Below are positions 21,317 through 31,823 of a stretch of 43,846 nt of DNA, piece after piece. Source of the DNA: Patescibacteria group bacterium (GTDB lineage: Bacteria > Patescibacteriota > Minisyncoccia > Phycocordibacterales > Phycocordibacteraceae); the NCBI GenBank assembly GCA_019752595.1, contig JAIELV010000001.1, positions 682,394 to 726,239 of the forward strand, in the 5' to 3' direction. A model generated the notes under the pieces. The model was not told the DNA's origin. It saw only the letters and a list, made by a program, of their open reading frames with translations, and searched no databases. The stretch's first letter is position 1. Each line of letters opens with the position of its first letter. Position numbers and translations under genes: made by a program.

Positions 21317-21775
21317 TTACAGTCCAATGCTTCTTGCCACCCTGTCGACGAGGGTATCGAGTTTATCTTCTTCAGGAATATTGTGATTCTTCATTTCCAT
21401 GCGAATTTCTCTATAGTCCACTCCTTCAAGCGGGGCGCGTACGACACCAATGAGTGTTTTACTCTCGACAGTCAGGTGTCGTGGTTCGTCTTCAGAAATT
21501 GAAAACCGAGTAATTTTGTCGAACGGAATCATATCTTTCCCAACCATAAAACCGCTTTCGGTTAGGCTATACGTGTGTCGTGATGGACGAGCTGAACCCG
21601 CAAGCATGATGGTAAAACCACCAATGACACAGATGACTGCAAAAAGATAGTTTTGAAGAATGAGCGACGCTATTGCTATACCGCTTGCCACAAGCCCTAC
21701 CGCCCAGTACCACGGCCTGTCCTTTTCTCTGTGCTCGTATTCATGCCCCTGCCAGCGCACGACGATATGTTCCAT
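21317..21775 (-). CDS. Hypothetical two-TM membrane protein with cytoplasmic PH-like tail
   Basis: 152 aa; two hydrophobic stretches followed by YSLTESGFMVGKDMIPFDKITRFSISEDE. Confidence 0.6.
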   Translation of the reverse strand: MEHIVVRWQGHEYEHREKDRPWYWAVGLVASGIAIASLILQNYLFAVICVIGGFTIMLAGSARPSRHTYSLTESGFMVGKDMIPFDKITRFSISEDEPRHLTVESKTLIGVVRAPLEGVDYREIRMEMKNHNIPEEDKLDTLVDRVARSIGL

Positions 21776-21797: not shown

Positions 21798-22538
21798 TTG
21801 CATGCAAAGTTTGGTATTATGCGCTCCGATATGGAACATGCAGATCCGAAAGGAGAAGAGCTGGCGCATACCCTCAAAGACGAAGCTGAGCTCCTCGCAT
21901 TTAAGTCTAAATATGATGGATACAAGCCAGGAATCGTTCCGCGCATCCTTGGCTCACTGTTAGTTTTCTGTGGTGATGCCGTGTATGGCAAAAAACCGTC
22001 ATATCTAAAATTTCGTGCCGTTGAAGTTATTGCACGTATCCCGTACCACTCATGGGAATCTGCTGCGTTCACACTTCTCACATTGTTTTTTATGAACGAA
22101 AAGAAAGCGCTTGCACTTTCAAATGTGTCTTGGTTTGCGCGAATGGCATCCGATAACGAAACGATGCATGTGGTCGTTATATCGCAGCTTGCCCATAAAG
22201 CGGGCGGAGGGAATTGGTTTGTGCACACACTCATACCAATGGTGTTTGCGTTCTTCTACTTCTGGGCGGCGTACTGGCTGTACCTTTTCAGTCACAAAGC
22301 AGCATTTGAACTAAATTATCTTTTCGAGCAACACGCGTTTGACCAGTATTCAGAATTTTTAAAGACCAATGAAGCGGATTTAAAGAGTAAAAAAATGGAG
22401 AGCGATTATCTTGCGTGGTACGGCAGGAAAGCAGAAACGGAATACGATTTCTTCATGCTCGTCAGAAATGACGAAATAATTCATCGCAATAATTCAATCG
22501 CGCATATTGAGGAACGCGCAGCTATGAAGGCAGGTTGA
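21798..22538 (+). CDS. Alternative-oxidase (AOX)-like di-iron carboxylate membrane protein; start may be 21831
   Basis: Ligand pattern WESAAF, DNETMH, LFEQHAFDQYSEFL, RNDEIIHRNNSIAH with hydrophobic segments, matching LET / NERMHL / LEEEA / ADEAxHR. Confidence 0.75.
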   Translation: MHAKFGIMRSDMEHADPKGEELAHTLKDEAELLAFKSKYDGYKPGIVPRILGSLLVFCGDAVYGKKPSYLKFRAVEVIARIPYHSWESAAFTLLTLFFMNEKKALALSNVSWFARMASDNETMHVVVISQLAHKAGGGNWFVHTLIPMVFAFFYFWAAYWLYLFSHKAAFELNYLFEQHAFDQYSEFLKTNEADLKSKKMESDYLAWYGRKAETEYDFFMLVRNDEIIHRNNSIAHIEERAAMKAG

Positions 22539-22869
22539 AGTATTTTTTCACGCTTGCCACATCAGCCGCAATGGCGCTCTGAAGCGATTCATCATCACTG
22601 AATGTTCCGTGTTCGCGGATTTTTTCAATCAAGGTGAACGTTGCATGCTTGCCGTACAGATTGCCTGAGAAATTAAGAATGTACGCCTCAAGAAGCCCGC
22701 GCTTTTCGTCACCGAAAAGCGCGGCGAAGTATTCCTTTCCCTCTACAAAAACAGTCCCCGCATATATTCCGTTTACAGGTTCACTGACGGTGATGTTTGC
22801 AGTAGGGAAGCCAAGCGCCGAAGCTTTTTTTGAACCCTCAATAATGATGCCTGTAAAAGTTTTTTTCAT
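22522..22869 (-). CDS. Stand-alone riboflavin kinase (RibF C-terminal type)
   Basis: GSKKASALGFPTANITV, NGIYAGTVFVEGKEYFAALF, EAYILNFSGNLYGK; no FMN adenylyltransferase domain. Confidence 0.85.
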   Translation of the reverse strand: MKKTFTGIIIEGSKKASALGFPTANITVSEPVNGIYAGTVFVEGKEYFAALFGDEKRGLLEAYILNFSGNLYGKHATFTLIEKIREHGTFSDDESLQSAIAADVASVKKYFNLPS

Positions 22870-22872
22870 ACG

Positions 22873-24228
22873 CTACGGTGCAAGCCACTCTTGCTTCCAT
22901 GACGCACCTCGTTTTGTATAGAGCATTCGCTTGTGCAGACGCCCTGAATCACCTTGTTGCCAAAACTCGCACTCACGCGGGGTAAGGCGATACCCACCCC
23001 AGTGTGGAGGCAGAGGAATTTTTTTACCATCAAACTTTTTTCGTAAAAGATGCATTGCTTCTTCGAGGGACTCAGGGTTCTTTAGAGGGAAACTTTGTTC
23101 TGACGCCCATGCGGATAGCTGGCTTTCGCGCGGACGAGTGCTGAAATACGCAGCCGATTCTTTTTTTGAGACGCGTGATATTGCTCCTGTTACGCGCACC
23201 TGGCGGGCTACTGTAGGCCAATAAAATACGAGCGCCGCGTTTGGATTTTCGGAAAGCTCACGGGATTTTCTGCTTTTATAGTTTGTGAAGAATGTGAACC
23301 CGCGGGTGTCCTGATTTCGGAGAAATACAATACGTGCCGATGGCAGTGCTTTTTTTGTTGCTGTCGCGAGAATCATCGCATTGGGCTGAGTTTCGGTTCC
23401 CGTTTCAGCAAACCACTTTTTAAATTGATGGAGCGGGTTCTTATCGTAGCCACCTTCTTCAGGAATAGGGGTGTTTGGATTCAATGCTTTCGCGTATGCG
23501 CGTACTGTCTGAGAAAATCCCAACCTAAGCGCGTCAGCAGTGAGCTCGTGCCCGATTGAGGCTTCGGAAACGTATGCGGAGGTTTCTTTTATGAGTGGAG
23601 GAATATTTTTCAGATTCAGGTCGTGTCCGATGTGTACGTCAAATCCCAACTCGCGCGCTCGCCTCGCAGTTGATGTAATTTTTTTGATTTCAGCTGCATG
23701 CTTACCCAAAGTAAAAAGCCGTGCGTATTCACCCGTGTAGATTTCTACACCATCTGCGCCCAAAGTGCGCGCTTTCTCAAAAGCAGAAAATCCAGGGTCA
23801 ACAAAAAGAATTACTCGCGTTTTGAATGTGCGAAGTTTTTTCATCACCCCTTTCAGGTGCGTCATCTGCGACGCAGTTAAGTCCCACCCCTTTTCAGAAG
23901 TGAAAGCGGATGCAGCGTCTGGCACGAGCGTGCACTGCTCAGGTTTCACTTTTGAAACAAGTTTTATCCATTCTGAATCAGGATAGCCCTCTATATTGAG
24001 CTCTTTGTGCGGGCGTAACGGGCGCATTCGTTTTGCAATCAGCGTGACGTCACTTCTGCGTACGTGGCGTTCATCAGGGCGAGGGTGGAGCGTAATTCCT
24101 GTAGAGCCCGCCTCAAGCGCGATGTCAGCAAAATTCAAAACATTCGGCACATTGGTGTGGCGCGCGTTTCTGAGAAGCGCCACCTTGTTCAGATTTACGC
24201 TCAGGCGGATGTGCTTTCGGGCAGGCAT
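22873..24228 (-). CDS. PdxJ-PdxH fusion: pyridoxine 5'-phosphate synthase + pyridoxamine/pyridoxine 5'-phosphate oxidase
   Basis: PdxJ: LSVNLNKVALLRNAR, GITLHPRPDERH, ELNIEG, VEIYTGEYA, VHIGHDLNL. PdxH: QPNAMILATATKKALPSARIVFLRNQD, FFTNYKSRKSRELSENPNAALVFYW, FSTRPRESQLSAWAS, PLPPHWGGYRLTPRECEFWQ, RLHKRMLY, WLAP. Track ORF begins at 24258. Confidence 0.92.
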   Translation of the reverse strand: MPARKHIRLSVNLNKVALLRNARHTNVPNVLNFADIALEAGSTGITLHPRPDERHVRRSDVTLIAKRMRPLRPHKELNIEGYPDSEWIKLVSKVKPEQCTLVPDAASAFTSEKGWDLTASQMTHLKGVMKKLRTFKTRVILFVDPGFSAFEKARTLGADGVEIYTGEYARLFTLGKHAAEIKKITSTARRARELGFDVHIGHDLNLKNIPPLIKETSAYVSEASIGHELTADALRLGFSQTVRAYAKALNPNTPIPEEGGYDKNPLHQFKKWFAETGTETQPNAMILATATKKALPSARIVFLRNQDTRGFTFFTNYKSRKSRELSENPNAALVFYWPTVARQVRVTGAISRVSKKESAAYFSTRPRESQLSAWASEQSFPLKNPESLEEAMHLLRKKFDGKKIPLPPHWGGYRLTPRECEFWQQGDSGRLHKRMLYTKRGASWKQEWLAP

Positions 24229-24247
24229 AGAAGTCGTAGTGATTCGC

Positions 24248-24505
24248 TCACGAATCACTACGTATAGTACTTAAGAAGTGTCTTTTGAGAAACGCGCCCC
24301 CAGAGCCGGTTTTAAGATACTTTTCGAACCCAAATGCGCGATATTTATTTTTGAAAGCGGTATAGGTAAGCAATTCTACAGGTCTTCGATTCTTTGTGGC
24401 TGGTACGTGTCCTTTCTCGTGTCGCTCCAACCTTTCTTTCAGGTTATCCGTACAACCCGTGTAAGGTTTTTTGTCAGCACAACTGAGAGTGTAAACGTAA
24501 TACAT
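24248..24505 (-). CDS. GIY-YIG nuclease-like protein
   Basis: MYYVYTLSCADKKPYTGCTDNLKERLERHEKGHVPATKNRRPVELLTYTAF. Confidence 0.85.
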   Translation of the reverse strand: MYYVYTLSCADKKPYTGCTDNLKERLERHEKGHVPATKNRRPVELLTYTAFKNKYRAFGFEKYLKTGSGGAFLKRHFLSTIRSDS

Positions 24506-24531
24506 AGTCACTCCATTGTCGCGGACTTCAT

Positions 24532-24587
24532 GCGGACATTGTCCGCCGAAGCCCACGAGACCTTGGCGAATCCCGACTTCGCCAAGG
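24532..24587. repeat. Two palindromes between GIY-YIG gene and tRNA-Ser
   Basis: GCGGACattGTCCGC (24532-24546) and CCTTGGCGAAtcccgacTTCGCCAAGG (24561-24587). Confidence 0.8.
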
Positions 24588-24603
24588 CTACGTCGGGCAA
24601 AGG

Positions 24604-24690
24604 CGGAGGAGGTGAGATTCGAACTCACGGTCCAGTTTCCCGGACGCCGCATTTCAAGTGCGGTGCGTTAGACCACTCTGCCACTCCTCC
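24604..24690 (-). tRNA. tRNA-Ser (anticodon TGA)
   Basis: Acceptor GGAGGAG/CTCCTCC, loop CTTGAAA, long variable arm. Confidence 0.95.
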
Positions 24691-24760: not shown

Positions 24761-25147
24761 GTGGCAAAGCTCATTGGTATAGATTTCGGTACGAAGAGGG
24801 TGGGGGTTGCCGTGTCCGATGAGAGCGGCTCTGTAGCATTCCCCAAAACGACTTTGGCGAATGATCGGGCTCTCATTCCAACCCTTGCCTCACTCATTCG
24901 ATCTGAGAATGTCTCAACTGTAATTGTGGGCGAATCGCACGATATGAATGGGAACGATAATGCAGTTATGGATGCAGTGCGGAGTTTTGTAGCGAATTTA
25001 GAGAAGGTAATTGCCGTTACAATAGTGTATGAGCCTGAGTTTTATTCTTCACGCGAAGCGCGTAGAGAAGGCCAGCAGGGCTCGGTAGATGCGCAAGCTG
25101 CAGCAATCATCTTAAACAGTTTTATTACTCGCACGAAAAAAACATGA
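24761..25147 (+). CDS. ruvX: Holliday junction resolvase-like RuvX/YqgF (GTG start)
   Basis: AKLIGIDFGTKRVGVAVSDESG, STVIVGESHDMNG, REARREGQQGSVDAQAAAIIL. Confidence 0.9.
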   Translation: MAKLIGIDFGTKRVGVAVSDESGSVAFPKTTLANDRALIPTLASLIRSENVSTVIVGESHDMNGNDNAVMDAVRSFVANLEKVIAVTIVYEPEFYSSREARREGQQGSVDAQAAAIILNSFITRTKKT

Positions 25148-31139: not shown

Positions 31140-31823
31140 TTGGTATACGTTATATACTTGAGGTATATGGGAGTTCGCGGGGCTCGACCGAAGAGGAAAA
31201 GTATCTCCTGGTCAGCAAAACTCGCCTATGCCGTAGGGCTGATTGCAACTGACGGTTGTTTATCTGGAGATGGAAGACACATAGAGCTCACTTCAAAAGA
31301 TAAAGAGCAACTGCTTACTTTCATGCAATGTGTTGGGAAGAAAGTGAAAATTAGTACCAAAAAGTCTGGATATACCAGGAAGTTGACGACAAGAATTCAA
31401 TTTAGCGATGTAACGCTCTATTCGTTCTTTATATCTGTTGGTCTTACCCCGAACAAGACAAAGACGATAGGGAAATTAGAGATCCCAGATAAATATTTCT
31501 TTGATTTTTTGCGAGGCTCACTTGATGGTGATGGTTCGTTCTACTCGTACTGGGATCCGCGCTGGCGCTCAAGTTTTATGTTCTACTTGTCTTTCGTAAG
31601 TGCAAGTATGGCGCATCTGAACTGGATTCGAAGTGTTTTGACAAGATTAATATCTGTACGCGGGCACAAAACCAATGCGAAAGGGAAGAGTTGGTATCAA
31701 CTGAAGTACGCAAAGAAAGAGTCTTTAAAAATCATAAAAAAGATGTATTATTCCAATTCGGTTCCTTGCCTACAGAGGAAAAGAAAGAAAATCTTTCTGG
31801 CACTCAAACGGCAGAGGACTTGA
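31140..31823 (+). CDS. LAGLIDADG homing endonuclease-like (start possibly 31167)
   Basis: LAYAVGLIATDGCLSGDGRHIELTSKDKEQL and FFDFLRGSLDGDGSFYSYWD (two LAGLIDADG-like motifs). Confidence 0.85.
   Translation: MVYVIYLRYMGVRGARPKRKSISWSAKLAYAVGLIATDGCLSGDGRHIELTSKDKEQLLTFMQCVGKKVKISTKKSGYTRKLTTRIQFSDVTLYSFFISVGLTPNKTKTIGKLEIPDKYFFDFLRGSLDGDGSFYSYWDPRWRSSFMFYLSFVSASMAHLNWIRSVLTRLISVRGHKTNAKGKSWYQLKYAKKESLKIIKKMYYSNSVPCLQRKRKKIFLALKRQRT

Follow-up and report, generated by a model that had tools for sequence, protein, structure and literature searches.

A single gene joining PdxJ and PdxH in a Patescibacteria genome, a putative late module of vitamin B6 synthesis

The gene pdxJ is the signature of the DXP-dependent pathway of vitamin B6 synthesis and is almost confined to Gracilicutes and cyanobacteria (PMC9997740). 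According to the same work there are many holes early in this pathway, PdxH is mostly tied to genomes that have PdxJ, and Epd and PdxB/PdxR are often missing even in genomes that are truly DXP-dependent. The highly unstable intermediate of the route is 3-phosphohydroxy-1-aminoacetone (PHA), which lies between PdxA and PdxJ, and PdxJ is a reported bottleneck in B6 engineering (PMC10471632). PdxH has also been reported in five CPR MAGs from groundwater (PMC12577380).

Two kinds of described system are close to the case treated here. The first is a pdxST deletion strain of B. subtilis which, with only pdxJ and pdxH of E. coli, evolved PLP synthesis without PdxA, and which needed two genomic (suppressor) changes for this (Rosenberg 2018, as described in PMC7954711). 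The second is the fusion of consecutive enzymes, a pattern known in B-vitamin metabolism, with the RibF synthetase/kinase as an example (PMC4921024).

The genome considered in the present study carries one gene in which PdxJ and PdxH are joined, and it thus shares the consecutive-enzyme pattern with those fusions (PMC4921024). It is also like the B. subtilis construct, as described in PMC7954711, in having PdxJ and PdxH without PdxA or PdxST. The construct differs in that it is laboratory-made and consists of separate genes, and in that Dxs and SerC are included in the figure of that review, while neither was found in our genome. The fusion resembles the construct more than it resembles the normal pathway, and it is a possible natural counterpart of it. 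Each of the two enzymes is known. Their union in one chain was found neither in the collections nor in the literature searched, and it is seen in one genome only. As will be argued below, the fusion is a rare, probably acquired and shortened late B6 module, not a complete pathway.

The fusion gene and its two halves

The window, that is, the whole stretch of DNA that was analysed, is 43,846 nucleotides long. In the preliminary description, one uninterrupted ORF at 22873-24228 had been assigned as a PdxJ-PdxH fusion. These coordinates are right; the strand, which had not been given, is the minus strand, and the residue numbers used there are those of a 461-residue version that begins at an in-frame GTG at 24258. 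This alternative start adds 10 codons. Numbered from the ATG, the parts of the gene are the following.

22873..24228, minus strand: PdxJ-PdxH fusion gene, 451 aa, with the ATG start at 24228 and the stop ending at 22873
23485..24207, minus strand: PdxJ (pyridoxine 5'-phosphate synthase) domain, residues 8-248, from Pfam, NCBIfam and AF2
23440..23481, minus strand: linker between the domain ends, residues 250-263, NPNTPIPEEGGYDK, about 15 residues
22876..23439, minus strand: PdxH (PNP/PMP oxidase) domain, residues 264-451, from Pfam, NCBIfam and alignment

No stop or frameshift was seen within the ORF (24228..22873, minus strand); frame 1 of the plus strand has many stops over the interval 22873-24228. 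The domain searches bear out the assignment of both enzymes to this one ORF. With Pfam, PdxJ (PF03740) is matched at residues 8-248 (E=1.3e-73), PNPOx_N (PF01243) at 281-384 (E=7.3e-23) and PNP_phzG_C (PF10590) at 410-451 (E=2.6e-14). With NCBIfam, the PdxJ half scores 287 bits for NF003626 (cut-off 222) and 202 bits for TIGR00559 (cut-off 192.75), and the PdxH half 231 bits for TIGR00558 (cut-off 180) and 240 bits for NF004231 (cut-off 129). The PhzG model gives the PdxH half 150 bits, well under its cut-off of 270. Both halves are complete. The curated equivalog cut-offs are exceeded, and the scores are far above chance.

The active sites were examined by alignment. For the PdxJ half, what we take to be the active-site residues of the E. 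coli enzyme, from its structure, was used as the list. In the alignment to 1m5w, the residues matching N9, R20, H45, R47 and H52 are kept, as are the counterparts of E72, T102, E153, H193 and H216, and the same ten residues are identical in 80/80 fetched relatives. For the PdxH half, the PLP-contact residues reported for the E. coli enzyme are Y129, R133, S137, R197 and H199 (PMC10969823), and they align with Y361, R365, S369, R430 and H432 of the fusion. The catalytic motifs of both domains, described earlier as apparently intact, thus look intact by alignment as well, with no loss of a tested PdxJ residue or of a PLP-contact residue.

Compared with E. coli PNPOx (TIGR00558; 1dnl/1g76), both Pfam domains and the five checked PLP contacts are alike. 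The present oxidase differs in forming the C-terminal part of a fusion, in having Arg304 where the E. coli enzyme has Lys72, and in lacking the N-terminal lid segment (Arg14/Tyr17). The PdxH of Thermomicrobium likewise has Arg at this position, and a short Sphingomonas PdxH is likewise without the lid. Judging from these sequences, Lys72 and the lid residues appear not to be universal in the family, and we have not treated their loss as disqualifying.

In the PdxJ half, Asp11 and His12 of the E. coli enzyme have Asn14 and Lys15 as their counterparts. This change, together with the absence of the canonical precursor enzymes (see below), could be taken to mean that the PdxJ half has acquired a new function, in which other substrates undergo a different condensation and the PdxH half acts on its product. 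However, Asn and Lys are the usual residues of this NK-type PdxJ subfamily, being found in 79/80 and 66/80 of the relatives, respectively. A crystallised enzyme of Stenotrophomonas maltophilia, 6w6a, which is deposited as a PNP synthase, is also of the NK type. In addition, two NK-type relatives have neighbours that look like B6- or serine-pathway genes. Labelled by reading the sequences, a MocR-like regulator adjoins one of the five alphaproteobacterial PdxJ genes with which the fusion groups (see below), and SerC-like and SerA-like genes adjoin an NK-type PdxJ outside that group. A new function of the PdxJ half is therefore considered quite improbable.

The AF2 model of the PdxJ barrel has pLDDT values mostly above 90, and its best PDB match by Foldseek is 6w6a (rmsd 1.3, target TM 0.93). 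The half thus has the full-length TIM barrel of the NK-type enzymes (NF003626; 6w6a), and all tested active-site residues are common to both. The linker is modelled with low confidence. In the full-chain model the PdxH half is unreliable, PdxH rows being lacking; modelled alone with one relative, it matches PNP oxidases with a TM of about 0.69 and moderate confidence.

The variable slot and the origin of the fusion

The genes and features surrounding the fusion are the following.

22522..22869, minus strand: stand-alone riboflavin kinase (FMN-forming), 115 aa, Flavokinase PF01687 with E=4e-22
21798..22538, plus strand: alternative-oxidase-like di-iron protein (PF01786), a convergent neighbour, conserved in position in four congeners
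24248..24505, minus strand: small GIY-YIG protein, 85 aa, PF01541 with E=5e-12, directly upstream of the fusion
24235..24262, minus strand: perfect 28-nt inverted repeat, the only one in the window at a tolerance of up to 3 mismatches
24602..24690, minus strand: tRNA-Ser(TGA), the border of the variable gene slot
24761..25147, plus strand: RuvX/YqgF, a syntenic flank that locates the slot in congeners
21317..21775, minus strand: DUF5673-like membrane protein, the syntenic flank on the opposite side

The ATG of the riboflavin kinase lies 3 nt past the stop of the fusion. Judged solely by this spacing, the two genes would be co-transcribed. FMN, the product of the kinase, is the cofactor of PdxH, and with co-transcription FMN would be made alongside the oxidase. 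The 28-nt inverted repeat is situated 6 nt upstream of the ATG of the fusion and overlaps the end of the GIY-YIG gene; it is a possible RNA hairpin. A search of the fusion region gave no consensus promoter. The requirement of PdxH for O2, which had been pointed out in the preliminary description, fits the alternative-oxidase-like neighbour, and this neighbour is consistent with an O2-exposed lineage. A search for alternative oxidase in Parcubacteria gave no match among the papers covered. Elsewhere in the window, at 31140-31823 (plus strand), a LAGLIDADG-like ORF lies directly 3' of the gene for ribosomal protein L19 and upstream of a tRNA-Leu.

In four congeners (G005, G006, G007 and G009) both the riboflavin kinase and the alternative-oxidase-like gene are retained, and PdxJ and PdxH are absent. 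The order of the flanks is also conserved in the congeners, with RuvX and the tRNA-Ser on one side, and the riboflavin kinase, the alternative-oxidase-like gene, the DUF5673-like gene, a tRNA-Arg and RuvA on the other. Between the tRNA-Ser and the riboflavin kinase, the fusion genome has the small GIY-YIG gene and the fusion. An aldo/keto reductase is found in this slot in G005, in G009 and in one contig of G007, a Vut_1 transporter also in G005, an endonuclease/phosphatase in G006, and an ORF that reads as DUF202-like in another contig of G007. Since the fusion is absent from these congeners while the kinase is kept, we read the fusion as an insertion into a slot of variable content, which lies upstream of the resident gene for FMN formation. 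The kinase was also considered as cargo acquired together with the fusion, but this was rejected because it is resident in congeners that lack the fusion.

Two observations on the slot can be added. Its contents differ among congeners (L112, L113, L114, L117 and L118) in the manner of a small integration or exchange hotspot, at 24248-24602 of the window. In G007 there are two contig ends with tRNA-Ser and riboflavin kinase (L117 and L118) whose slots are unlike, which suggests duplication or mixed strains. No long direct repeats that could mark the boundaries of a mobile element were found bracketing the insert.

It is important to consider whether pdxJ and pdxH could have been joined artificially, by contaminating DNA or an assembly chimera. 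Contamination does occur in such MAGs, and a foreign-looking contig with pdxH is found in the bin of congener G006. That PdxH match (L002), on a contig of 1,078 bp with a DnaJ-like start, is probably contamination and was rejected as a relative. The fusion, on the other hand, is a single clean ORF on the contig C1, which makes up 831,433 of the 903,456 bases of an assembly in three contigs, and its flanks are syntenic on both sides in congeners. The codon usage of each half is native-like, as the halves rank 12 and 15 within the spread of 34 genes of the window. Their GC contents are 0.497 and 0.490, compared to 0.475 for the window. Moreover, the end of one protein is joined exactly to the start of the other via a short linker, and a near-identical pdxJ or pdxH is absent from every collection searched. 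The large contig, the native-like codon usage and the congener synteny make a misjoin or contaminant very unlikely, and the frameshift that had been named as a refuting condition is not present in this ORF.

A tree built from 85 PdxJ sequences places the PdxJ half in one group with five PdxJ of Alphaproteobacteria (support 100/98), on a long branch (0.89). The nearest PdxJ sequences are from Rhodospirillales, Acetobacteraceae and Sphingomonas (L014-L018), with 52-56% identity. As no other sampled genome of the phylum has PdxJ (see below), horizontal transfer into the lineage is the simplest reading, and we infer that the PdxJ part arrived in this way. The gene sits in the variable slot between the tRNA-Ser and the riboflavin kinase. 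With at most 49% identity of the PdxH half to anything found, the fusion may have been assembled within this lineage.

Distribution of the fusion

PdxJ scores above the cut-off in the fusion genome only, that is, in 1/384 genomes of a phylum-wide sample and in 1/388 of a class-wide sample that overlaps with it. The C-terminal domain of PdxH is likewise found in this genome only among the 384 genomes phylum-wide, and the full-length fusion has a match in it alone among 398 genomes of the order. Weak PdxJ matches in two other genomes (G061 and G625) are partial and under the family cut-off, and they were rejected. These numbers agree with the earlier remark that vitamin cofactor synthesis is unexpected in a reduced CPR-like lineage, as far as PdxJ in the sampled genomes of the phylum and class is concerned. 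PdxS, of the DXP-independent route, is present in 23/309 phylum genomes, all outside the class of the fusion genome.

Outside the phylum samples, the 80 nearest PdxJ loci were inspected. Among the matches listed, none of them has a fusion to PdxH, or a separate PdxH or riboflavin kinase within the fetched DNA. No record among 72,556 plasmid or 50,697 phage records covers at least 80% of the query. Scans of viral contigs gave no match for the fusion, and for the oxidase half alone one unrelated PdxH. None of the papers covered by the literature search describes a PdxJ-PdxH fusion, and the main text of the work on B-vitamin gene fusions (PMC4921024) contains no pyridox- or pdx- term. The survey for many identical fusions elsewhere, which had been suggested as a measure of novelty, thus gave none in the genome, plasmid and phage collections searched.

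A stand-alone PdxH occurs in G842, a genome of the same order, beside a gene that reads as LemA-like. The N-terminus of a stand-alone PdxH in a genome of the order (L126, 59-691), SIPEE, resembles PIPEE in the linker of the fusion, which is possibly a relic of a PdxH start.

Missing partners and the role of the fusion

We now consider what the fusion could do in this cell. The signature gene of the DXP-dependent pathway, pdxJ, is present in the genome. However, PdxA was not found in a family search with positive controls, nor were a true Dxs, SerC, PdxK or another pyridoxal kinase, or PdxS of the DXP-independent route. Several matches in these searches were rejected. Namely, the DXS-domain matches are the N-half of a transketolase and an acetolactate synthase, the Aminotran_5 matches considered for SerC are an IscS/NifS-type cysteine desulfurase and a glycine C-acetyltransferase, and the pyridoxal kinase match is a PfkB-type sugar kinase. 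As the assembly is in three contigs, the absence of the partners is strong, not absolute. The earlier placing of the fusion in DXP-dependent B6 synthesis is not supported in the sense of a working pathway in this genome, and the pdxA, serC and dxs that were to be looked for are not found.

In the mechanism that we propose, a single bifunctional polypeptide would have an N-terminal PdxJ barrel and a C-terminal FMN-dependent PdxH. The PdxJ half would condense DXP and PHA to pyridoxine 5'-phosphate (PNP), and the PdxH half would oxidise PNP (and PMP) to PLP with O2. Since there is no canonical PdxA, Dxs or SerC, DXP and PHA must in this mechanism come from promiscuous or non-orthologous enzymes, or else from a host or neighbour. 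A bifunctional enzyme that serves as a late module, with substrates from elsewhere, is the reading that we consider probable, and in it both activities would be present in vivo. The narrower proposal that the fusion alone makes PLP, with promiscuous or non-orthologous enzymes providing PHA and DXP in a natural shortened B6 route, is in our judgement unlikely.

The main alternative is that the gene serves salvage only. The selected activity would then be that of PdxH, re-oxidising PMP and PNP that are imported or set free by PLP enzymes, and the PdxJ half would be a passenger without substrates. This would account for the missing PdxA, Dxs and SerC, and it agrees with the PdxH without PdxJ in G842 of the same order, with the PdxH reported in several CPR MAGs (PMC12577380), and with the presence of PLP users, such as cysteine desulfurase and glycine C-acetyltransferase. 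However, the PdxJ half is full length and keeps all tested active-site residues, and a passenger on so long a branch would not be expected to do so. Furthermore, no B6 kinase was found, which means that only vitamers that are already phosphorylated could be used, and PdxH in general mostly accompanies PdxJ (PMC9997740). Salvage is thus possible but rather unlikely, and we retain the bifunctional late module as the preferred reading.

One gene pair in the genome can be mentioned in connection with PdxA. At L124 (952-3335), a glycine C-acetyltransferase gene lies beside a threonine-3-dehydrogenase-like gene, the product of which is below the Tdh equivalog cut-offs. The conversion of threonine by threonine dehydrogenase is similar to that of 4-phosphohydroxythreonine by PdxA. 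By its reaction chemistry this dehydrogenase-like enzyme could be a candidate stand-in for PdxA; nothing links the gene to B6.

As to why the two enzymes would be fused, it had been suggested that the intermediate could be channelled. The unstable intermediate is PHA, upstream of PdxJ (PMC10471632), whereas it is PNP that passes between the fused domains, and channelling is therefore weakly motivated. Fixed stoichiometry, the tying of a slow synthase to the oxidase, and gene compaction would each explain a fusion just as well.

Finally, the meaning of the finding depends on which of the activities matters. If it is that of the PdxH half alone, the gene would be a rare but ordinary salvage acquisition. 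If both halves work, B6 engineering would have at hand a natural chain in which PNP synthase and oxidase are already combined, and the question of which host metabolites feed PdxJ without PdxA, a gap in the present picture of the pathway (PMC9997740), would become testable at the bench. A bacterium with a minimal genome would in that case have gained full or partial B6 independence from a single acquired gene.
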